DNA of 62,878 nucleotides from Paracoccaceae bacterium (GTDB lineage: Bacteria; Pseudomonadota; Alphaproteobacteria; Rhodobacterales; Rhodobacteraceae), in the NCBI GenBank assembly GCA_029243395.1, contig JAQWSE010000009.1, positions 1 to 62,878 on the forward strand. Direction: 5' to 3'. Positions within the stretch are counted from its first letter, which is position 1. Every line of letters begins with the position of its first letter. Below, piece after piece: positions 8,898-57,330 of this stretch. The position numbers and the translations under genes were made by a program. Under the pieces are notes generated by a model. The model searched no databases, was not told where the DNA came from, and saw only the letters and a program-made list of their open reading frames with translations.

Positions 8898-9284
8898 ATG
8901 AATGTTCAATCAGCACTAAACGCCTACAAGCAAACCAACCTCTCTGAAGTTGAGAGTGCATCGCCACACCGATTAATAGAATTAACATTTCAAGATCTGA
9001 AACGAAACTTATTAATAGTTCGTAGACACTTGAATGAAGGAAAACCAGTTGGAGGACAGGAGGCATCACAATCAATAGCTGCTCTGGAAATTCTCCGAAC
9101 TAGTCTCAATTTTGAAGATGGTGGAGAGATCGCTGCCAATCTGGATCAAATTTATGCTTATAGCTTGGACCAGTTATCAAAAATAATAAAAGATGATAAT
9201 GAATATGAACTTGACGCTGTTATCGCTATAATAAGTTCGTTGGTCGATGCTTGGGGTTCAATATCAAGCATTGAGAAACCTTAA
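8898..9284 (+). CDS. fliS: Flagellin export chaperone FliS
   Basis: 128 residues of the FliS helical-bundle family: NVQSALNAYKQT at the N-terminus, SPHRLIELTFQ, LNFEDGGEIAANLDQIYAYSL in the centre and AWGSI near the end. FliS binds the disordered C-terminus of flagellin before secretion. ATG 8898 has a strong GGAGGAAAG ribosome site; the longer reading frame starting at 8859 has none. Divergent from fliD. I see no sigma-54 element upstream. A second FliS-like gene lies at 10324. Confidence 0.92.
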   Translation: MNVQSALNAYKQTNLSEVESASPHRLIELTFQDLKRNLLIVRRHLNEGKPVGGQEASQSIAALEILRTSLNFEDGGEIAANLDQIYAYSLDQLSKIIKDDNEYELDAVIAIISSLVDAWGSISSIEKP

Positions 9285-28896: not shown

Positions 28897-29682
28897 CTCA
28901 TTGACAAGAATAAATCTATGAAACTATGGCATAGAATTTAGTCAGAATCCCAAATATGGATCAGAAACTTTTGGTTTTTGACACACTTAATGACTAGCTC
29001 CTGATCTCAATAATCAGTTTTTAACTACCTGTTCATGGATACTCTTATTAATATTATTACCAAAGGATAACGGCAGCTCTTAGATGTTTAACACTTTTAA
29101 TAGCAATCAAATAATCTTGCTCATTCTAACAATGGTTTTTTCAAACCGCATTTAATCAATGTTCAGGGGACTCAAGACTTTGCGGATAAAAAGTAATGGT
29201 CATGGTAGAATCAGCAAGAATGAAATAAATAAGAGCATGCCCTTGCAGCCAATTCTTAAAAGGTATTTCCTTTGATGATGATTGGCTTTCATTTACAATT
29301 CAGGCCCATTATTAGCCAAAGTCGAGGATCCAAGCCTTTAAATATTGTCCTGATAATATGAGTTGCTTTGTCAAGATCAGAGCTTAATTAAACTCAGCTT
29401 AATATTTGTAGTTAATAAATGGGGTAAAGATCCAGCCATTTGATGAGTATCAATATTACAAGAAACCTACCGAATTTAATAGATTCATCCCAAATAACAA
29501 ATAACATATTCTTTTAGCTTAGAATGGCAAACCTGGAACACACGTTGGACATGCAGAACATACCATCCTGGGCTCTTCAGATTGGGTATTCTCTAGAGAC
29601 TGTGTATCTTATTGTAGCGCTAATAAGGCTCACAATCAAAAAATTGAATATGTAACAAATACTACAAAGTGTACTTTTGTAC
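28897..29682 (+). other. 786-base stretch with no convincing gene
   Basis: AT-rich DNA with stops in all frames. The longest candidate I see is a 43-residue reading frame at 29524-29655 (plus) without a ribosome site. No tRNA, repeat or sigma-54-type element was recognised. The stretch lies between convergent ends (the 28060 gene and motB), so no promoters are needed here; it may be decayed coding DNA. Confidence 0.6.
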
Positions 29683-44332: not shown

Positions 44333-45040
44333 ATGAGAAATGAAACTAACGCACTTATTTTTGACGTAGATGGCACCTTAGCTGAAACAGAGGAGCTTCA
44401 TAGAAGAGCCTTCAATGATGTGTTTAAGAAAAAGGAGTTGAACTGGTACTGGGATAAACCATTATATACAAAATTACTGCGTATAGCAGGTGGAAAGGAA
44501 AGGATTAAATTCTATCAGACCAATATTTCCAAACATAACAGGTCTTTGGGTGATCATGATGTTTCTCTAATGCACAAAGAAAAAACGCAAATATACGCAA
44601 GCTTGGTTGAAAATGGAGCTCTAACTTTAAGGCCAGGAATCCACTCCATAATTACAAATGCACTTGAAAAAAAAATCCTCCTGGCCATAGCTACATCTAC
44701 TAGCCATTCAAACGTAATCCCATTAACTCAAAGCTGTTTTGGAAAAAAACCTACCCAGATTTTTTCCTACCTTGCGACAGGAGATTTGGTGAAGAGAAAG
44801 AAACCTGCAGCAGACTTATACCATCTGGTCTTACAAAAAATGTCTTTAAAGCCAAAAGAATGTCTTGCTATAGAGGATAGCGGTATCGGATTAATGGCAG
44901 CTAAAGCAGCTAACATTCGAACCCTGGTGTCTCCCAGTTTCTACCACATGTCAGACGATTTTACTGGAGCTGACTATATATGTGCTGGCTTCGAACGAGA
45001 ACAACTGCCAAAAGAATTTTGCCAGCTGCTTTTTCAGTAA
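44333..45040 (+). CDS. HAD-superfamily phosphatase, CbbY-like
   Basis: 235 residues. Motif I is FDVDGTLAETEELH, motif II is IATSTS, motif III is the Lys in KRKKPAADLY, and motif IV is IEDSGIGLMAAKAA. The cap matches the CbbY subgroup, which removes xylulose-1,5-bisphosphate in Calvin-cycle organisms. No other Calvin genes are visible; it lies beside pseudoazurin and the photosynthesis remnants. Confidence 0.82.
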   Translation: MRNETNALIFDVDGTLAETEELHRRAFNDVFKKKELNWYWDKPLYTKLLRIAGGKERIKFYQTNISKHNRSLGDHDVSLMHKEKTQIYASLVENGALTLRPGIHSIITNALEKKILLAIATSTSHSNVIPLTQSCFGKKPTQIFSYLATGDLVKRKKPAADLYHLVLQKMSLKPKECLAIEDSGIGLMAAKAANIRTLVSPSFYHMSDDFTGADYICAGFEREQLPKEFCQLLFQ

Positions 45041-45052
45041 CCTGAAATTCTC

Positions 45053-45493
45053 TTAGTTAGCCAATTCAGCAAGCATTTCTTCCATTCTGACCTTGGCTTT
45101 CTTGGGAACCTTCTTACCGTCGAGAAACCCTTCCGCATTGACTTCGCCAACTGCTATGATAGCTACCATGCCGTTCGCAAAGTGCGGAGTACATTTAATA
45201 CCATAAAGTCCATCTTCTGAAACAACTATGCTCACTGCTTTATTTATTTTGCCTTTAAACTTCTTAATTCCCTCAGGTAGCATACCCTTCATGCTTGCAG
45301 CCATATGCCCCTTTTCTGTGGGTAGAAAAGTCACAGTGTCACCTTTTTCTGCCTTAATAAGCATAGGTTCAAATACCATCGTGTTACCGCCTGCGTCTTT
45401 ATTTAACATTTTCACTTCAATTTCAGCAGCAGACAACAAATTCACTGACAGTGCAAAAAGCACAGTCGTTATCAATAAAACAAATTTTTTCAT
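45053..45493 (-). CDS. Pseudoazurin (blue copper protein)
   Basis: 146 residues from ATG 45493, which follows GAGGAA; the longer frame uses a TTG at 45511 inside that region. Signal peptide residues 1-22. Copper ligands: His in EKGHMAAS, then Cys, His and Met in the CTPHFANGM loop. Pseudoazurins carry electrons in the periplasm, for example to nitrite or nitrous oxide reductases or from sulfur oxidation. Confidence 0.93.
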   Translation of the reverse strand: MKKFVLLITTVLFALSVNLLSAAEIEVKMLNKDAGGNTMVFEPMLIKAEKGDTVTFLPTEKGHMAASMKGMLPEGIKKFKGKINKAVSIVVSEDGLYGIKCTPHFANGMVAIIAVGEVNAEGFLDGKKVPKKAKVRMEEMLAELAN

Positions 45494-45583
45494 TTTTTCC
45501 TCACAAAGCAAGACAATAATAGTACCAATTTACTCGGTAACCAAATTTCGGTTTACTCTAATTTCATAGGAGAATCAAACCCT

Positions 45584-45703
45584 TTAAGCAACCACTCTAG
45601 AGAGAGCGCACTGCTTCCACAATTTTGCTAAGCATTCTACAAAATAATCAATATTTTCATCTGAATGTAACGGTGATGGTGTAACCAATACCTTTGAAAC
45701 CCC
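45584..45703 (-). pseudogene. hemA: 3' end of 5-aminolevulinate synthase (hemA), remnant
   Basis: The last 40 or so codons match the C-terminus of alphaproteobacterial HemA (LVTPSPLHSDENIDYF, then LAKLWKQCALSRVVA). The reading frame runs on to 45772 only because it crosses into antisense bchP sequence. The other 360 or so residues are missing, so the gene is dead. HemA sits beside the puh/acsF part of photosynthesis clusters in Rhodobacterales. Confidence 0.83.
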
Positions 45704-46107
45704 TTGAAAAATGGGATAACGGGAAAGACTTAGTGTTGGCTGGTGATGTGGCCGGGGTTGTTGCTCCTTCATCCGGAGAGGGAATTTACTACGCCATGAT
45801 AGGAGGCCAAGAAGCGGCCCTGGCTACCCATAGCTGTCTATTATCAGGAAACTCTAAGGATTTACAATTGGCTCGTAAAAGATTTATGTCAGAACACAAA
45901 ACTGTGTTTCGAGTTCTCGAAGCCATGCAAAACGCTTACTAAAAATCTGATGATAGAAGGGAGCGTTTTGTTGGTTTGTGTAAAGACGTTGACGTTCAAA
46001 GATTGACTTTTGAGTCATATATTCACAAGAAATTGGTCACTCGAAGACCTCTAGCCCATTTAAAAATTATGGTTAAGAATCTTTTACATTTATCAGGGTT
46101 AGTTTGA
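45694..46107 (+). pseudogene. bchP: 3' part of geranylgeranyl reductase (bchP), remnant
   Basis: About 135 codons of the C-terminus of BchP, the enzyme that reduces the geranylgeranyl tail of bacteriochlorophyll. Recognised: LAGDVAGVVAPSSGEGIYYA, then KSDDRRERFVGLCKDVDVQ and KKLVTRRPLAHLK. A TAA at 45940-45942 interrupts the frame where a Tyr codon is expected, and the same frame continues to TGA at 46105. The first two thirds are absent, replaced by hemA sequence of the opposite strand. Confidence 0.87.
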
Positions 46108-46115
46108 GTCACGAC

Positions 46116-46646
46116 ATGACCGAGATTATTGCGGCATGGAAAAATAATAGCTTAGTACCAGCAGAAAAACTTCAAGTACATAAACTTGGCTTGAAGCACC
46201 AGCTGTGTCTGTTTTCGTTAAACAGCAAGAGAATATACTTATCCAACAGCGCGCATCTATAAAATATCATAGTCCGGAACTGTGGGCAAACACAGCCTGC
46301 ACGCACCTACACTGGGGAGAAAATCCTGAAAACTGCGCAGATAGAAGGCTTTCAGAGGAACTGGGGATAGGCAAATTAGATTTGCAATTTCGCAGTGAAG
46401 TGGAATGCCGGGGCAGAAGTAGGAAATGGGCTTATCGAACATGAGGTGGTAAGGGTCTTTGTGTCAGATTTATCTCCTGATCTTGATTTGTATGTGAGAC
46501 CAAATTCCATGGAAGTAAAGTCGGTCAAGTGGATAAGCATTTCCGAAGTTAAAGTAGAAATGAAACTTTACCCTCAGAAATTCACTGAATGGTTTAAGAT
46601 TTACATGAAACAGCACTCCGAAAATATTTTTCATAAGGTTCTATAA
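46116..46646 (+). pseudogene. idi: Isopentenyl-diphosphate isomerase (idi), frameshifted twice
   Basis: Starts 8 bases after the bchP stop, the bchP-idi order of purple-bacterial clusters. Coding is clear in three blocks: MTEIIAAWKNNSLVPAEKL (frame 1), IQQRASIKYHSPELWANTAC (frame 2), VGNGLIEHEVVRVF (frame 1 again). The breaks fit loss of one C near 46200 and gain of one G near 46410. Translation from 46116 would stop within about 50 codons, so no functional enzyme is expected. Confidence 0.87.
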
Positions 46647-46658
46647 AAATCCAAGTAT

Positions 46659-48584
46659 TCAAGCAGATTTATTATTTTTTCGTTTAAATCTACCTACAGA
46701 TACTCCAAGTAGGTCGAGCACTTTTTCTACAATATCTTGAGAGTCTAATCCAGCTGCCTGGTACATTTCCTTCGGGGAAGCTTGATCAACAAATTTGTCC
46801 TTCAGGAACATGGCTCTAAATTTTAGATCACCATCCAATAAACCATTCTCCGTTAGAAATTGAGCCACGTGTGAACCAAAACCACCTATTGCTCCTTCTT
46901 CAATAGTTACCAATACCGAGTGATTAACCGCCAAGTCCTTTAGCATTTTTGTATCTAAGGGCTTCGCAAACCTAGCATCAGCGATCGTTAAGCTGATCCC
47001 AGATTTTTCTAACAGTGTGGATGCATCACGAACTTCCCCCAAATGTGCTCCAAAGTTGAGAATAGCTACACCACTAGTCCCTTCTTGAATCATTCTACCT
47101 TTACCAATTTCAATTGGCACTCCTGACTCAGGAAGCTCAATCCCTTCCCCTTCCCCACGTGGATATCTAAAGGCTATCGGTCCAGAATCGTATTCGGCAG
47201 CGGTAGCAACCATGTTCATGAGCTCTACCTCATCGGCAGCAGCCATTACAACAAATCCTGGTAAATTTGTTAAATATGCAACATCAAATGAGCCCGCGTG
47301 TGTGGCACCGTCAGCACCTACTAATCCCGCTCGATCTATAGCAAAACGCACTGGTAAACCTTGGAGGGCAATATCGTGAACGATCTGGTCATAGCCTCTT
47401 TGCAGAAAGGTTGAATATATTGCACAGAAAGGCCTCAACCCCCCGGCAGCCATCCCACCAGCAAAAGTTACAGCGTGTTGTTCTGCAATGCCTACATCAA
47501 AAACTCTCTCCGGAAAGGTTTCTTGCATAATATTTAAACCTGTACCCGATAGCATCGCTGCCGTTATAGCGACAATTCTGTGATCTTTTTTTGCCTGATT
47601 TACCAATTCCTTTCCAAAAACACTGGTATAAGAGAGAGCATTTGGTTTCGATTTCTTTTGCTCTCCAGAAGCTATATCAAATTTTGCTACACCATGATAC
47701 TTGTCTGAGGAAGTTTCAGCTGGCTCATAGCCTTTTCCTTTTTTTGTTACACAATGAATTAATGTAGGACCGGAAGCTCTCGCTTTTACAGCTCTGAGCA
47801 CTGGCAACAGCTGGTCAAGATCGTGACCATTTATTGGTCCCAAATAAGAAAAACCTAATTCCTCGAAAAAAGTTCCCCCAGAAGCCATACCGGTAATTAG
47901 ACTCTTAGCTCTTCGAGCTCCCTCCTGTATTGGGCTAGGCAAGCTCTTAGCTAAACCTTCTGCTAGTTTTGTGAGGCTATAGAATTCATTATTCGCATAA
48001 AGACTGGAAAGATATTTCGACATTGCACCTGCTGGTGGTGCTATAGACATCTCGTTATCATTCAAAATCACGAAAAGTCTACGACCTTCTGAACCTGCGT
48101 TGTTTAATCCTTCGTATGCCATACCAGCACTAATGGATCCATCACCAATCACGGCTATTGCATCACCAACCGATGTTCCCAGTTCCCTGGCCACTGTAAA
48201 ACCTAAAGCTGCTGAGATCGACGTTGAGGAATGCGCCGCTCCAAAAGGATCGTATTCGCTCTCGGATCTCTTAGTAAAACCAGAAAGGCCTTCTTTCTGC
48301 CTCAAGGTTCTCATTCTATTTCGTCTTCCAGTAAGTATCTTATGCGGGTAACACTGATGGCTTACGTCCCAAATTAACCGATCATGCGGAGTATTAAAAA
48401 CAGCATGCAATGCAACAGTCAGTTCGACTACCCCTAAACTGGAACCCAAATGTCCTCCCGTTTCTGAAACAATAGATATTGTCTCAGCTCGTAACTCCCT
48501 AGCTAAGCTAGCGAGTTGGTCGTCTGATAACTGTCTTAGGTCAGAAGGCAGATCAACTTGGTCTAAAATTGGAGAATTTACCAT
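46659..48584 (-). CDS. dxs: 1-deoxy-D-xylulose-5-phosphate synthase
   Basis: 641 residues, full length and free of damage; the same length as the dxs-type gene I recall at the puf end of Rhodobacter clusters. Thiamine-diphosphate enzyme joining pyruvate and glyceraldehyde-3-phosphate in the non-mevalonate isoprenoid route. Motifs: [18 protein letters not shown], the [18 protein letters not shown] ThDP-binding stretch, and [17 protein letters not shown]. It is kept intact among ruined neighbours, as expected for a gene needed for quinones and cell-wall lipid. Confidence 0.96.
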
Positions 48585-48741
48585 AATTAGTCCTTAAAGA
48601 AAAAAAACAGTACTGAAGAGCTATGTGAGAACCATCCCCTTCCACCACTGTTTAATTATGCACTCTTATACCGGAGATACTAAGCGGTCATAAGCCGCAT
48701 AGAGTTTTCCTCCAGCATAATATGCACAAATTTTCTCTTCC

Positions 48742-49005
48742 TCAAGCATTTTTTTTGGTCAAGTTGCGCATAATCAGAAAGTTCCCTGATGTTTTTTTCC
48801 CCGGACAACAAAAATTTGAATAGTTGAATAGTCTAAGTTCCACCATTGCAAGCAAAACTTGGCTATAGACGAAACCCGAAACTAAGTCATAAATTCTACG
48901 ACCGTCTTTCGCCGCCATTCTATTAAGTACGGGAAGTTTTTTGACCAAAGTGTGAAACTTAGGCTTGGCAACAAGGTTATTCATCCAACTGAAAAACCAA
49001 TCCAT
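48742..49005 (-). pseudogene. crtF: 5' part of hydroxyneurosporene methyltransferase (crtF), remnant
   Basis: The N-terminal 60 or so residues match CrtF, with IYDLVSGFVYSQVLLAMVEL. The frame then slips at a poly-A/T run near 48802-48817; the -1 frame continues with LLSGEKNIRELSDYAQLDQK, as expected of CrtF. Beyond about 48750 the match ends. CrtF is normally near 370-390 residues. It lies 17 bases behind crtE, the usual crtEF operon. bchCXYZ and puf genes, which normally follow before dxs, are missing. Confidence 0.8.
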
Positions 49006-49022
49006 TATAAAGTCACAAGGGC

Positions 49023-49904
49023 TTATAGAACTTTATCTGCAGCAAAGGAGGGCATTAATTGCTTAGCCTGATGACGAATGATTTCACATAATTGTGCTTC
49101 ACCCGGACAAGCGGGAATAGATGCAATAGCCCCACTCAAAATTCCCTGCAAACGATCTATGGCCCCCTCAACTCCTAATTCTGACACGGCACTTGGCCTG
49201 CTATTAATAGCGTCCTGCCCTTTAGGTTTACCAAGTTCATCCAATTGCCCAACCACATCCTTTAGGTCATCAGCCACCTGAAATGCTTCCCCAACCCTTG
49301 CTCCTAATTCAACCCAAGGTTCAGGATCTTCCCCAGCCGATACAGCTCCCATACAGGTAGCTGCAACAAATAAGGACCCAGTTTTAAGTTGATGGTAAGC
49401 ACTCAGATTGATTTTTTTTTCACTTTCCCAACCTTGGCCTGAACAGATCCCAAAAGGCAAGCCCGATGATTTAGTGAGCATCCTAATGAGGCTCGGTAAT
49501 CTGTCTGGACATTTCATGCAACCTTTGGCCAGATTTTCGAAAGCCAGTATAATCAACGCATCGCCAGCCAAAACAGCTACAGTCTCACCAAACGCCCGGT
49601 GTACAGTTGGTTTGCCGCGCCTCAAAGCCGCATTATCAAAACAAGGAAGATCATCGTGCACCAAACTAGCACAGTGCATTAGCTCAATGGCAGCTGCAGC
49701 AGTGTCTGTTATTTTAGGAAAATCATCTCCGCAGGCTTCTGCAACTGCTAAGCACAAACGTGGTCGGACCCTTGCTCCTCCTGGAAAAACAGCGTAATCA
49801 ATCGCTGCTGCCACTTTTGGTGGAGCTGGCAAATCTTTTGCACTCCTCAGCGTTTGAGACAAAGCTATATTTATTCTCTCTTGGATATTATTTGCTTTCG
49901 TCAT
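49023..49904 (-). CDS. crtE: Geranylgeranyl diphosphate synthase, CrtE
   Basis: 293 residues, intact. First Asp-rich motif in LVHDDLPCFDNAALRRGKPT, second in FQVADDLKDVVGQ; the ICSGQGWESEKK and SIPACPGEAQL segments are those of photosynthesis-cluster CrtE. It would make C20 (or C15) diphosphate for carotenoids or for quinone and lipid carriers; no carotenoid pathway remains here, so it may now serve as the cell's IspA-type enzyme. Confidence 0.92.
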   Translation of the reverse strand: MTKANNIQERINIALSQTLRSAKDLPAPPKVAAAIDYAVFPGGARVRPRLCLAVAEACGDDFPKITDTAAAAIELMHCASLVHDDLPCFDNAALRRGKPTVHRAFGETVAVLAGDALIILAFENLAKGCMKCPDRLPSLIRMLTKSSGLPFGICSGQGWESEKKINLSAYHQLKTGSLFVAATCMGAVSAGEDPEPWVELGARVGEAFQVADDLKDVVGQLDELGKPKGQDAINSRPSAVSELGVEGAIDRLQGILSGAIASIPACPGEAQLCEIIRHQAKQLMPSFAADKVL

Positions 49905-49970
49905 AGTTGCTCCTTAACGAATGCGGTCTAGCATATGGAGTAAAAATTGTCTAATTTTTCGGCACTTAAA

Positions 49971-49988
49971 TGTAAGTGCCTTAATACA
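49971..49988. promoter_or_regulatory. TGT-N12-ACA site between crtE and crtD, PpsR/CrtJ-like
   Basis: TGT at 49971 and ACA at 49986 are separated by exactly 12 bases, the PpsR/CrtJ operator pattern found at divergent crt promoters. A second, degenerate TGT-N12-CAC begins at 49948. A perfect 8-base inverted repeat (GGCACTTA, 4-base loop) covers 49961-49980. A chance match is possible. Confidence 0.4.
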
Positions 49989-50020
49989 CAGAAGTTCTGA
50001 ATCAATTTGGTTTTAAGATT

Positions 50021-50896
50021 TTGAAAGATAAGAAAGTGATCATTGTAGGTAGTGGCATACATGGCCTGGCAGCTGCTATGAGACTTTCGACCTGTGGGAT
50101 TAATGTTCAAATATTTGAGAAACAATCCTATCCTGGTGGTAAGATTAGAACCAAAAATAACGTTACCGGATTAATCGATTCTGGCCCAACAGTTTTAATA
50201 ATGCATGAAATATTTGCCGATATAGTCCTGTTCAACGGAGATCCTAGGGCTCTAACAATGGGTTTATTGGGTATTCAAGTTAAAAAAAGTATCGCTCAAA
50301 AGAAGATACAGCCTAGATCCCTCTCTGCTTATGTGTGGAGTTTTGCGGCTAAACCAGCTAACCACAAATTGGTTCATCACAATGTCTTCTTCAATATTAA
50401 CTACAAAAAGGAGTTTCAAGACATCAATGAGGGAATCATCCCTACAGATCCAACTTTTTATGTTTGCGCCCAAGGCAACAATAAGGATCCAACGCCAAGT
50501 TCCACTGCCATTGGTGGTTTCGAAATAATAATCAACGCCACCCCTATTCCTAACCCAAAGAGTCAGGATAAACATGAGGAATTCCAAAGATGCAAAAATA
50601 TAACATTTCCAATCCTAGAATCGATGAGACTGAAACTGGAATTAAGCCCAAAAAAAGAAATGTTGACCACACCCTTCGAATTCGACAAATTATTTCCGGG
50701 CTCATCCGGATCTTTATACGGAAGAAGCCCTCATGGAATCAATTCTACATTCAAAAAGCCTCTATCCCAAAGCCAGATAAAGGGTTTGTTGGTCGCCGGA
50801 GGAGGAACCCATCCAGGAGCAGGAGTACCAATGGCATGCCAATCCGGCAAGCATGCGGTAGAAACGATCTTACGCGACCTAAATTTGATATCATAG
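50021..50896 (+). pseudogene. crtD: Carotenoid 3,4-desaturase (crtD) with a large in-frame internal deletion
   Basis: 291 residues against roughly 490-500 for CrtD. N-terminal FAD fold (VGSGIHGLAAAMRL, PGGKIRT, DSGPTVLIMHEIF) runs at residues 67-70 straight into the late VLFNGDPRALTMGLLG motif; about 190 family residues are missing in between. The rest follows CrtD (RSLSAYVWSFAAK, HHNVFF, PTDPTFYVCAQG, GAGVPMACQSGKHA). The deletion kept the frame, so automated annotation would call a normal gene. Start is TTG 50021. Divergent from crtE, as in purple bacteria. Confidence 0.85.
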
Positions 50897-50931
50897 TAGA
50901 GAAGATTGGCTATGCCCTGGTGGTACGTTGA

Positions 50932-51165
50932 TGGAATCTCAATAAGTTAGCCCGAGAATGGCAAAACTTAAGCATACCGATTTCTTTTATTCTGGGAGAG
51001 AAAGATAATATAGTTCAAAATTCAGATAGTATAAAAGCATCAAAGCAAATGATGTTCTCGGAGGTACAAATTAATAAAAATCACGGGCACCTTATGCATG
51101 AAGAAGATCTAGATTTGATTTCTGGACAAATTAAATGTTTTTACAAAAAACTAGTGTCTTTTTAA
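50932..51165 (+). pseudogene. bchO: 3' end of bchO (alpha/beta hydrolase), remnant
   Basis: An open stretch without a start codon encodes LAREWQNLSIPISFILGEKD and, later, NHGHLMHEEDLDLI, the C-terminal lid and catalytic-His region of BchO, the protein linked to magnesium chelatase (bchIDO). An upstream stop (TGA at 50929) precedes it. crtC and the crtA-bchD side of the cluster are missing between crtD and this fragment. Confidence 0.65.
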
Positions 51166-51223
51166 GTAATTTCAATAAATATAGGACCTTGAGGAAAAAA
51201 CTGCGGTTTATATAATCATACTT

Positions 51224-51916
51224 ATGAGATTGTTCACGGTACTTTTCGCATTAATGCTAGTTGCTTCAATTTTTTTGAATGTCGGACTGCATAACGTTTC
51301 AGCAACTGAAATAGTGGGCGGAGAAAAAATTTTTAAGAAATGCAAAACCTGCCACCAAATTGGTGCTGGGGCTAAGAATCGTGTTGGCCCCCACCTTAAC
51401 GAAATTGGAGGCAGAGTGGTTGGATCTGTTGAAAATTTTAAATATTCAAATTCTCTGCTAGAATTGAAGGAACAAGCCATTCGCTGGGAAAAACCAATGT
51501 TGGACAAATACTTGAAAGAACCAAGAAAGTTCATTCAGGGGACTAACATGAATTTTTCAGGAATAACGGACGAATTGGAAAGAAAGAAAATTATTGAATT
51601 TATATGGCAAGTATCCGAATCGACTCAAGGATCTTCGGTTCAAGAAAATTCGCTCCCAGAAGAAATTTTGTCCATTGCAGGAGATCGTGATTATGGGGAG
51701 TATTTATCAAGTGAATGTGCTACATGTCATCAAGCTTCAGGAAAAGATGAAGGCATCCCATCTATAACAAATTGGCCAGTAAAATCCTTTATTATAGCCC
51801 TGCATGCTTATAAAAATGGAAATAGAAAACATCCCATTATGGAGATGATCACAAAACGACTTTCTAATGAGGAAATTGCATCACTTGCTATTTTTTTCAA
51901 TTCGATAAATAATTAA
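51224..51916 (+). CDS. fccA: Periplasmic diheme cytochrome c, FccA/SoxE-like
   Basis: 230 residues. A signal peptide (1-27, ending VSA) and two heme-binding motifs, CKTCH at 40-44 and CATCH at 165-169. The first domain is of the cytochrome c2 type (VGPHLNEIGGRVVG, with a Met ligand in NMNF), the second of the short SoxE/FccA type. It is followed by fccB after 19 bases; together they form the sulfide-oxidising flavocytochrome c. Confidence 0.88.
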   Translation: MRLFTVLFALMLVASIFLNVGLHNVSATEIVGGEKIFKKCKTCHQIGAGAKNRVGPHLNEIGGRVVGSVENFKYSNSLLELKEQAIRWEKPMLDKYLKEPRKFIQGTNMNFSGITDELERKKIIEFIWQVSESTQGSSVQENSLPEEILSIAGDRDYGEYLSSECATCHQASGKDEGIPSITNWPVKSFIIALHAYKNGNRKHPIMEMITKRLSNEEIASLAIFFNSINN

Positions 51917-51935
51917 TTCATAAGGAGGATGAAAT

Positions 51936-53198
51936 ATGAAACTCAATAGAAGACATTTTATTTCAGCTTCGGCCGGCATTACTGCTGCAATGTCAGCACC
52001 TGTGGTTTTTGGAGCTTCCAGACCTAAGGTAGTTGTAATTGGGGGAGGAGCTGGAGGAGCGACAGCAGCAAGGTATATCGCCAAAGACTCAAAAGGTGCC
52101 ATAGATGTGACTCTGGTGGAGCCTACGAGAAGCTATTATACATGTTTTTTCTCAAATCTTTATTTGGGTGGCTTTAGAGATTTTGATTCCATAGGTCACA
52201 CCTATGGAAAATTAGCGAATGATTACGAAATTAATGTTGTTCATGACTGGGCTGTAGATGTAGATTCAAATAATAGGAACGTTTCTTTGGCAGGTGGAGG
52301 ATCTTTGAGTTATGATAAACTGATCCTATCTCCTGGGATTGATTTTGTAGATGGCTCAGTTCCTGGTTGGGATTTATCTTCACAGAATAAAATGCCGCAC
52401 TCCTATAAAGCTGGATCTCAAACTCAACTTTTGAGTGCCCAAATTGACAATATGAAATCTGGGGGCACTTATTGTATGGTAGCCCCGCCAAATCCATTCA
52501 GATGTCCTCCAGGTCCCTATGAAAGGGTATCCATGGTTGCTCACAAACTAAAGAAGAGCAATCCAAGCGCAAAAATTCTAATTCTTGATCCTAAACCAAA
52601 ATTCTCTAAGCAAGGTCTTTTCGAAGAAGGTTGGAACAAACATTATTCAGGAATGATTGAGCGCATAGGACCTGACATGGGCGGTAAGAGTGTTGAAGTT
52701 AAACCTGATAGCATGGAAGTTGTCATAGATGGAAGTTCTGAAAAAGTGGATGTTTGTAATGTCATTCCTGCCATGAAAGCTGGAAAAATTGCTGAGATTG
52801 CTGGAGTGACTGATGGCAATTGGGCTCCTGTAATTCCGCATAGTATGCAAAGCAGGAAAAATGATCATATTCATGTACTTGGTGATGCTTCGTCTCAAGG
52901 TGATATGCCAAAATCCGGTTTTTCAGCAAACTCTCAAGCTAAGGTATGCGCCATGGCCGTTAGGGCAGCTTTAACTGACTCAAAGTTGTTCCCAGCAAAG
53001 TTTTCCAATACTTGCTGGTCGTTGGTTGATACGAACGATGGTATCAAAGTAGGTGCAAGTTATGAAGCAACAGACGAAAAAATAGCTAAAGTCTCTGGTT
53101 TTGTGTCAAAAACTGGCGAAGATGCCGCGTTAAGAAAAGCTACGTATGAAGAAAGTCTAGGTTGGTATTCTGGAATTACTTCAGACATGTTTGGTTAA
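51936..53198 (+). CDS. fccB: Flavocytochrome c sulfide dehydrogenase flavoprotein
   Basis: 420 residues. A Tat signal (NRRHFISASAGI) leads into FAD-binding VVVIGGGAGGATAARYI. Redox Cys residues are in YYTCFFSNLYLGG and FRCPPGPYERVSM, and the C-terminal FCSD domain follows (GYSGI-type WYSGITSDMFG). It oxidises sulfide in the periplasm and passes electrons to FccA. AAGGAGG precedes the ATG. Confidence 0.94.
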   Translation: MKLNRRHFISASAGITAAMSAPVVFGASRPKVVVIGGGAGGATAARYIAKDSKGAIDVTLVEPTRSYYTCFFSNLYLGGFRDFDSIGHTYGKLANDYEINVVHDWAVDVDSNNRNVSLAGGGSLSYDKLILSPGIDFVDGSVPGWDLSSQNKMPHSYKAGSQTQLLSAQIDNMKSGGTYCMVAPPNPFRCPPGPYERVSMVAHKLKKSNPSAKILILDPKPKFSKQGLFEEGWNKHYSGMIERIGPDMGGKSVEVKPDSMEVVIDGSSEKVDVCNVIPAMKAGKIAEIAGVTDGNWAPVIPHSMQSRKNDHIHVLGDASSQGDMPKSGFSANSQAKVCAMAVRAALTDSKLFPAKFSNTCWSLVDTNDGIKVGASYEATDEKIAKVSGFVSKTGEDAALRKATYEESLGWYSGITSDMFG

Positions 53199-55476: not shown

Positions 55477-56700
55477 ATGAGCCATAACAACTTTTATTTT
55501 CAGAATTCCAGATGGCTGGCTATAACTACACTGTTATATTTCTCTTCCTCCTTTGGACAAACCTTCTTTATCGCCATTTTTGCTGGAGCTATAAGGGAAG
55601 AGTTCGGTATAAGCCATACCATTTGGGGTACTATTTACGCTGTAGGCACTCTATCTTCTGCGGTTTTGATGTTCAAGTTTGGAGGTTTTGCAGACAAGAG
55701 GGAACCTCGCAGGCTCGGTAGTATTATAATTATTTCTTTAGCCCTTTCTTGCTTTGGAATGATGCTAGTTCAGCATGCTTGGGCTCTCCCAATACTTATC
55801 TTTGGCTTGAGGTTCTTTGGCCAAGGGTTTGCCAGCCATTTATCGATGGTGTTATGTGGACGATGGTTTCATAAAAATCGAGGCCGGACAGTTGCCGTGA
55901 CAAGCCTAGGCTTTGCTTTTGGGGAAGCCTTACTACCACTAATTTTTGTTTCAATCATGGGATGGATAGGTTGGAGATTCTCTTGGGGAATAGCTGCTCT
56001 AATATTACTCTTAGTAGCTTTATTCTTCAAGATATTGCTAAATAACGAAAGAACTCCAAAAAGTGTAGTAGATAATGTTAGCTTAAATAATATCCGTGGA
56101 CTTTATGGCAAACATTGGACCAAGAGTGAAGTTTTGAAGAGTTGGGTTTCATGGCCAATGTTAATAGCAATAATGGCACAATCTATGTTTGGAACAATTT
56201 TCTTTTTCCAGCAAGTGACTTTAGGAATTGAAAAGGGTTGGGAAATTAACCAATTTGCGATTCTAGTTCCTGTGTATACTGTAGTAAGTATTCTCTCCAC
56301 TTTCATCGCTGGATCTCTCATCGATAAATTTGGTGTAAGACGGTTGATCCCTTTCTATTTAATCCCTGGTATGCTTGGGTTTTTAATTGGTAGTTTCTTA
56401 AACGATCCCATAGCCAGTAGTTTAACATTTGCCCTTTTAGGTATGACAACAGGTCTGAGTAATTCTTTTAGTGGGACCTTTTGGCCTGAGTTTTTTGGAA
56501 CAAAACACCTAGGAGATGTAAGAGCAATTGCCACTTCATCAATGGTTATAGCGTCAGCTCTTGGACCACTCTTTAGTGGATTTTTTCTAGATTTAAATAT
56601 TTCGCTTTCAGTTCAATTTCAACTTATGGCCTTGATAATGAGCATTTGCACTATAGGCCTCGCTATTATTAGCCTAAAGACAAAATCAGACATGAGCTAG
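55477..56700 (+). CDS. Major facilitator superfamily transporter
   Basis: 407 residues, twelve membrane segments. The cytoplasmic MFS loop 2-3 motif GGFADKREPRRLG is present, and GSLIDKFGVRRLI repeats it in the second half. Substrate unknown. It converges on scoB with a 3-base gap. Confidence 0.87.
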   Translation: MSHNNFYFQNSRWLAITTLLYFSSSFGQTFFIAIFAGAIREEFGISHTIWGTIYAVGTLSSAVLMFKFGGFADKREPRRLGSIIIISLALSCFGMMLVQHAWALPILIFGLRFFGQGFASHLSMVLCGRWFHKNRGRTVAVTSLGFAFGEALLPLIFVSIMGWIGWRFSWGIAALILLLVALFFKILLNNERTPKSVVDNVSLNNIRGLYGKHWTKSEVLKSWVSWPMLIAIMAQSMFGTIFFFQQVTLGIEKGWEINQFAILVPVYTVVSILSTFIAGSLIDKFGVRRLIPFYLIPGMLGFLIGSFLNDPIASSLTFALLGMTTGLSNSFSGTFWPEFFGTKHLGDVRAIATSSMVIASALGPLFSGFFLDLNISLSVQFQLMALIMSICTIGLAIISLKTKSDMS

Positions 56701-56703
56701 GAT

Positions 56704-57330
56704 TCAAATAACTAGATTTCCTTCTGTGACAGCTTTGATTTGTTCAAGGTTTGCTCCATCAGCTATTTCTATTATCTTTATGCCCTCACTAACAATATCA
56801 AACATACCATAATTTGTAATAAGGGAATCTACAACACCCTTACCTGTCAACGGCAATGTACATTCCTTGAGCAACTTACTTTCTCCTTTTTTATTAGTGT
56901 GATCCATAATAACAATTACACGCCTTACTCCAGAAACTAAATCCATAGCGCCACCCATGCCCTTAACAAGCTTCCCAGGAATCATCCAGTTGGCTAAATC
57001 ACCTGAGTCAGAAACTTCCATAGCGCCGAGTATAGCCATATCAATATGCCCTCCACGGATCATAGCAAAACTGTCAGCACTCGAAAAATAACTTGTTTTA
57101 TCAAGCTCGGTAATAGTTTGCTTACCAGCATTTATGAGATCTGGATCAACCTCATTTTCCTTTGGAAATGGTCCCATTCCGAGCATTCCATTCTCTGACT
57201 GCAGAGTGACATTCAAATTTTTTGGGATAAAATTTGAAACTAGGGTGGGTATGCCTATTCCCAAATTTACATACATACCATCCTTGATTTCCTTAGCTGC
57301 CCTGGCTGCCATCTCATTCCTATCCCACAT
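56704..57330 (-). CDS. scoB: 3-oxoacid CoA-transferase subunit B
   Basis: 208 residues. The catalytic Glu lies in SENGMLGMGP; YVNLGIGIPTLV and GGHIDMAILGAMEV are standard. With ScoA it moves CoA from succinyl-CoA to acetoacetate or a related 3-oxoacid. It follows scoA by 10 bases. Confidence 0.93.
   Translation of the reverse strand: MWDRNEMAARAAKEIKDGMYVNLGIGIPTLVSNFIPKNLNVTLQSENGMLGMGPFPKENEVDPDLINAGKQTITELDKTSYFSSADSFAMIRGGHIDMAILGAMEVSDSGDLANWMIPGKLVKGMGGAMDLVSGVRRVIVIMDHTNKKGESKLLKECTLPLTGKGVVDSLITNYGMFDIVSEGIKIIEIADGANLEQIKAVTEGNLVI

Follow-up and report, generated by a model that had tools for sequence, protein, structure and literature searches.

The window analysed here, a whole contig (C13) of 62,878 bases from the 2.49-Mb, 97.94% complete genome of a Paracoccaceae bacterium (labelled G000), carries at 45,584–51,153 what is very probably the collapsed remnant of a photosynthesis gene cluster (PGC) of about 44 kb, of the chromosomal type proper to its genus. 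The same wreck is present in a related draft genome (G149, 73% complete), and part of it follows a genealogy different from that of its surroundings. The explanation that best accounts for the whole, and which we hold with considerable confidence, combines the collapse of the PGC, the spread of a shared loss allele by recombination, and later decay of what was left. The genus comparison comprised 12 genomes, G000 included. Genes were located in the window by profile search (Pfam, NCBIfam) or by tblastn with the genes of G154, a genome with an intact cluster, and the relic was compared at the nucleotide level with G149 and, by blastn, with G156 and G090, a phototrophic draft relative (89% complete).

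Intact clusters of the genus sit between a pseudoazurin gene and fccAB, the same flanks that enclose the relic. The G154 cluster begins with fccB, cytochrome c, bchO, bchD, bchI, crtA, crtI, crtB, tspO, crtC, crtD, crtE and crtF, proceeds through bchC, bchX, bchY, bchZ, pufQ, an antenna gene (pufB), pufL, pufM, puhA, dxs, idi and bchP to pucC, bchG, ppsR, ppaA, bchF, bchN, bchB, bchH, bchL, bchM, lhaA and puhB, and ends with two small open reading frames (ORFs), acsF, puhE, hemA and pseudoazurin. These names come from NCBIfam models (with bchD, crtB and idi under the curated cut-off) or from Pfam matches to O-methyltransferase (crtF, PF00891), PUCC (pucC and lhaA), CobN/Mg-chelatase (bchH), TspO, PufQ, antenna, polyprenyl synthetase (crtE) and amine-oxidase-type (first third of crtI) families; dxs and hemA were named by their own profile searches and the remaining genes by position, and no model matched ppaA. 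The small ORF after bchZ, considered for pufB, was ruled out as it is PufQ by Pfam, and the ORF that follows it encodes the antenna protein. Both hemA and bchP are intact on one contig in six genus genomes. Reaction-centre genes (PF00124 matches) were found in 8 of the 12, in agreement with the phototrophic ancestor that an earlier note on this DNA had proposed. The four genomes without a match are the two relic carriers, G000 and G149, together with G153 and G158, which likewise have no dxs over the cut-off, so that the cluster region is probably unassembled in both.

The relic keeps the gene order and strands of the intact G154 cluster, interrupted by four gaps, and about 38 of the 44 kb are gone: 20,106 bp between hemA and bchP relative to G090, 9.3 kb between crtF and puhA and 8.3 kb between crtC and bchO relative to G156, and 624 bp, in frame, within crtD relative to G149. 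At its left end, hemA (5-aminolevulinate synthase) survives as about its last 33 codons (45,584–45,684, minus strand; TIGR01821, E 6.9e-5; tblastn E 1.3e-11), meeting at 45,684/45,685, as placed against G090, a bchP fragment that begins near codon 250, reaches the end of the gene and has two in-frame stops (45,685–46,116, plus strand; TIGR02023, E 5.7e-26; tblastn 80.6% identity); a whole-genome search returned this bchP C-terminus at 45,682–46,092 with 176.7 bits and two internal TAA codons. The type I isopentenyl-diphosphate isomerase gene idi is a frameshifted pseudogene (46,116–46,646, plus strand; NF002995, E 1e-14 and 6e-8 in two frames), and dxs is intact (46,659–48,584, minus strand; TIGR00204, 775.6 bits, cut-off 465.95). 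The last 27 codons of puhA (48,669–48,749, minus strand; tblastn E 1.8e-10, 85% identity, the intact gene being named by TIGR01150) abut the first 85 or so codons of crtF (48,745–49,005, minus strand; PF08100 at E 8e-4, under the cut-off; tblastn from the G154 gene in the crtF position, E 2.9e-21) with a 5-bp overlap, AGCAT, at the junction. The crtE gene is intact in the window (49,023–49,904, minus strand; PF00348, E 2.5e-47); its best NCBIfam match is to farnesyl diphosphate synthase (193.8 bits, cut-off 275) and the CrtE model comes second and under its cut-off (149.3 bits, cut-off 460), so the name rests on position. The 624-bp deletion, which carries a 6-bp repeat (TATTTG), has removed the middle of crtD (50,021–50,896, plus strand; NF045637, E 1.5e-101), and of crtC the first codons persist (50,897–50,941, plus strand), matching G090 and G156 in nucleotides up to 50,940/50,941. 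A longer crtC fragment, suggested by tblastn from 50,590 on, is mostly the end of crtD in another frame, and only the stretch to 50,941 was counted. About the last 63–74 codons of bchO close the relic (50,966–51,153, plus strand; blastn to G156 from 50,966; tblastn over 50,932–51,153, E 7.7e-22, with a query that scores 293 bits against TIGR03056, cut-off 172.55). Both flanks are intact: pseudoazurin on the left (45,053–45,511, minus strand; tblastn with the G154 counterpart, E 2e-79, that counterpart scoring 140 bits against TIGR02375) and, on the right, a cytochrome c gene with the flavocytochrome c sulfide dehydrogenase gene fccB (51,224–53,198, plus strand; PF00034, E 2.5e-11; PF21706, E 7.9e-45).

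The earlier note, made from the DNA letters, had described a PGC relic with remnants of hemA, bchP, idi, crtF, crtD and bchO beside intact dxs and crtE. All of these were recovered far above chance by profiles and tblastn, they are homologous to PGC genes of the genus and lie between the same flanking genes, and the arrangement that the note took for that of a PGC proved colinear with the cluster of a relative in order and strands. The puhA C-terminus and the first crtC codons had been overlooked. A fairly recent loss, as it had suggested, is consistent with the fragments being mostly 91–95% identical in DNA to the intact G090 genes (88% in one crtD stretch). Set against the note's refuting condition of best hits in non-photosynthetic families, the fragments match PGC genes of the same genus. 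As to an intact cluster elsewhere in the genome, pufLM were not found (PF00124, 0/1 in G000 itself; control matched in 1/14), nor was a bchP over the cut-off in the rest of G000, the other bch genes not having been searched singly genome-wide; across the family, BchP exceeded the cut-off in 58 of 149 searched genomes (148 genera).

In G149 the relic lies on a 173-kb contig. Over 45.72–53.3 kb of the window the two sequences are separated by just two indels of at least 4 bases, one of 8 bp in crtF and the 624 bp of crtD. Their crtF/puhA and crtC/bchO junctions are identical. The latter includes about 24 bp that cannot be aligned with either side in G156 and that hardly vary between the two relics. 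The hemA/bchP ends differ, G149 keeping about 156 bp more of hemA (to G090 position 9195 versus 9039) and about 35 bp less of bchP (from G090 position 29,181 versus 29,146). The damage to single genes is also distributed differently: idi is an open frame in G149 and frameshifted in the window, an in-frame stop stands at codon 74 of the G149 crtE, a gene that is intact in the window, and crtD of G149 is frameshifted and free of the 624-bp cut. When 80 crtE-relative loci in named genomes were screened for loss of bchC, bchX or crtD, 79 were unflagged and the sole flagged locus was G149's own record, loci with too short a flank being impossible to flag. Beside the pseudoazurin gene, a gene at 44,333–45,040, HAD-phosphatase-like by eye, is open in G000 and G090 and frameshifted in its G149 counterpart (C20).

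The genealogy of the relic departs from that of other loci. At three of them the window is closer to G090 than to G149 (ispB, 95.3% versus 92.5% identity; hemB, 94.1% versus 90.9%; ispA, 95.6% versus 94.0%). Within a tract at 45,685–52,750, sharply bounded at the hemA/bchP junction and inside fccB, this relation is reversed, with 90.5% to G090 and 97.0% to G149 over bchP–idi, and 92.5% and 98.7%, respectively, over dxs. Identity to G149 reaches 97–99% in the majority of 250-bp steps across dxs and the cytochrome/fccB region and 92–97% over crtF–crtC, and drops sharply at the hemA/bchP junction and near 52.75 kb. Informative sites, polarised with G156 as the outgroup, group G000 with G090 in the left flank and ispB locus (356 sites, against 124 for G000+G149 and 97 for G149+G090) and G000 with G149 in the relic (99 sites, against 22 for G000+G090 and 11 for G149+G090). 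Trees, each paired with an approximately unbiased (AU) test of the alternative grouping, agree: the left flank unites G000 and G090 (support 100/100; G000+G149 rejected, p 7.8e-5), whereas bchP–idi–dxs (100/99.8; alternative rejected, p 0.0019) and crtD–crtC (98/97; p 0.014) unite G000 and G149.

In dxs the window and G149 show a synonymous divergence (dS) of 0.036; the cytochrome c gene gives 0.056 and what is left of crtD 0.08. By comparison, 58 other ORFs, from the window contig and three further loci, have a median dS of 0.222, the lowest value being 0.110. The fccB gene, which straddles the tract edge, shows 0.035 up to 52,700 and 0.161 over its whole length. Seven ORFs left of the relic have values of 0.16–0.30, and those right of the tract at least 0.16. 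The background omits ORFs between 45.5 and 53.3 kb and, since another exchange seems to have affected part of their region, ORFs starting at 54.9–57.5 kb. There, 55,501–56,750, which covers most of an ORF at 55,477–56,697, is 93–96% identical to G156 and just 69–79% to G149, the opposite of its surroundings, and probably reflects another exchange between species.

From this conflicting genealogy and low synonymous divergence we infer a recombination event and a route for it: homologous recombination probably carried the loss allele from one lineage to another. Several observations weigh against it. The crtF–crtE tree (48.76–49.9 kb) weakly groups G000 with G090 (78/82; alternative, p 0.167). 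The crtE gene, lying between the two shared junctions, has a dS to G149 of 0.146, within the background range, which suggests that the tract is a mosaic or that crtE was exchanged again. The G090 branch in dxs is itself long, with 65 unique synonymous changes, so that donor and recipient cannot be told apart; a transfer from a G149-like donor to G000, considered at one point, was withdrawn for this reason. Two of the 19 one-kb steps at the ispA locus are nearer to G149 than to G090, the right flank is not assembled in G090, G149 and G090 are both drafts, the background dS is drawn from four genome stretches and not from the whole genome, and linked sites are not independent, so Fisher p values on the site patterns are descriptive only. 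The simplest reading is that the deleted allele was transferred and the crtE patch exchanged again; it is just as possible that both species received the allele from a third donor.

The two identical junctions, together with the bchP–idi–dxs and crtD–crtC trees, would also be expected under a purely vertical history without recombination, in which the cluster was lost once, in an ancestor that G000 and G149 share to the exclusion of G090. We regard this as unlikely, given that the left-flank tree rejects that very grouping, that site patterns at the ispB locus by itself favour G000+G090 by 228 to 71, and that the dS of dxs falls so far below the values on either side of the tract. Two independent losses converging on the same junctions through short repeats would fit the 5-bp overlap at crtF/puhA and the truly different bchP/hemA junctions of the two species. 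Such convergence is very improbable in view of two identical junctions, one of them with the nearly identical unalignable bases, and of how unusually little the surrounding DNA has diverged.

The GC content of dxs (0.435) and crtE (0.463), above that of the window (0.384), could speak for a horizontally acquired partial cluster or an assembly artefact instead of a lost cluster. This, too, we consider hardly credible: order, flanks and two junctions recur in two separately assembled genomes, most of the genus carries reaction-centre genes, with hemA and bchP intact on one contig in half of the genomes, and the remaining pieces share 91–94.5% of their nucleotides with G090.

In the history that we favour, collapse followed by spread of a shared loss allele, three large deletions would have taken the reaction-centre, bacteriochlorophyll and most carotenoid genes, the deleted segments ending inside bchP/hemA, crtF/puhA and crtC/bchO. 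At least two of the three would have arisen once, being common to G000 and G149, and the allele carrying them would have reached its present distribution by homologous recombination after the lineages diverged. The hemA/bchP deletion, with its different ends in the two species, may have been made separately or re-cut in each, and would have removed hemA. The leftovers would have decayed since, through the crtD cut and the idi frameshift in G000 and the breakage of crtE and crtD in G149. More tentatively, at somewhat less than even chances, loss of phototrophy may itself have behaved as a transmissible allele: a deleted locus anchored by dxs would have replaced the intact cluster in another species, and the collapse would then have removed the sole ALA (5-aminolevulinate) synthase in each lineage, leaving it dependent on external 5-aminolevulinate or haem.

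The survival of dxs fits its status. Nine of the 12 genus genomes have a dxs over the cut-off, each as a single copy and always on the PGC or relic contig, and the window gene is the only one in G000. The deletions would stop short of dxs because it is the sole copy and isoprenoids are essential; judging from the biology of the 1-deoxy-D-xylulose 5-phosphate pathway, deletions crossing it should be lethal. Retention of crtE has no such reason, since G000 has two other polyprenyl synthases and the gene is already broken in G149. Three crtE changes are unique to G000 (2 nonsynonymous, 1 synonymous), too few to judge selection.

The collapse took hemA, and no other ALA synthase was found in the genus. 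A gene over the cut-off occurs in 6 of the 12 genomes, one in each, and in every case it is the PGC hemA, always on the bchP contig. No ALA synthase over the cut-off was detected in G000, which has the window fragment only, and the missing 2% of the genome could hold one. The second hemA that the earlier note proposed to look for was not found; the search returned only a glycine C-acetyltransferase (C2:172,257–173,348), ruled out as a replacement ALA synthase by its profile (620 bits, cut-off 460). By eye, this gene (L156 7167–8354) adjoins ORFs resembling a tripartite ATP-independent periplasmic (TRAP) transporter and catabolic enzymes, and in none of the other 11 genomes of the genus did the ALAS-family search give a comparable match to a non-ALAS gene. 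Glutamyl-tRNA reductase of the C5 route (PF05201) was found in 0 of the 12 genomes (control matched in 10/14), and hemB is kept in 7, G000 and G149 among them. With neither ALA synthase nor glutamyl-tRNA reductase found and hemB retained, G000 may need external 5-aminolevulinate, that is, the gene content suggests that it may be an auxotroph dependent on outside supply. In the family, 148 of 150 genomes of at least 95% completeness have an ALA synthase over the cut-off, the two exceptions by best E values, among the matches listed, being G000 and G048. The latter is 99% complete, its best ALA synthase match reaches just E 5.6e-55, and it may lack the enzyme too. ALA synthase genes have been reported in aquatic phages, and the gene of a Rhodobacter-like bin from a sponge symbiont is said to cluster with these (PMC11480375, 2024), which suggests that genes of this kind may be mobile; no example was seen here. 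Rhodopsin as a substitute for the lost phototrophy was found in 0 of the 12 genus genomes, and the control genomes were unmatched as well, so absence is not shown.

The chromosomal PGC of Rhodobacteraceae, as described by Brinkmann et al. (2018, PMC6052148), resembles the relic in the gene content of the fragments, and in the table of that paper hemA adjoins puhE in Dinoroseobacter shibae, as it does in the genus cluster here. The same table treats hemA as not PGC-specific, whereas in this genus the PGC gene is the only ALA synthase found. By tree reconciliation, that study arrived at a minimum of seven PGC transfers and eight losses in the family; those losses were inferred from trees, whereas here both the remnant and its breakpoints can be seen, and the main text does not use the words remnant, relic, pseudogen- or partial. 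Import of the deletion by transformation-like recombination is the mechanism that we propose, by analogy. Apagyi et al. (2017, PMC5850275) report that islands are lost through transformation more readily than they are gained, and the likeness lies in a short deleted allele with homologous arms being able to replace a long island; that was shown for genomic islands in pneumococci, whereas the case inferred here would be a natural one and would concern a core cluster of energy metabolism. No paper covered was recognisable, from its title and the start of its abstract, as an account of a wrecked PGC or of a loss allele passed between lineages, most subscription journals lying outside this coverage.

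The relic is more informative than the earlier note claimed: it is common to a second species, part of it has its own history, and no ALA synthase other than the lost hemA turned up in the genus. The patchy phototrophy of Rhodobacteraceae has been reconstructed by comparing trees (PMC6052148). Here the remnant can be read together with its breakpoints, and both another genome that carries it and relatives that are still phototrophic are to hand, so that the steps of a loss can be ordered. The link of the cluster to the sole ALA synthase makes the cost of that loss testable, as reliance on others for a haem precursor. If the allele did move by recombination, the loss of phototrophy would not be merely the private accident of a lineage, and counts of losses made on the species tree would be off.

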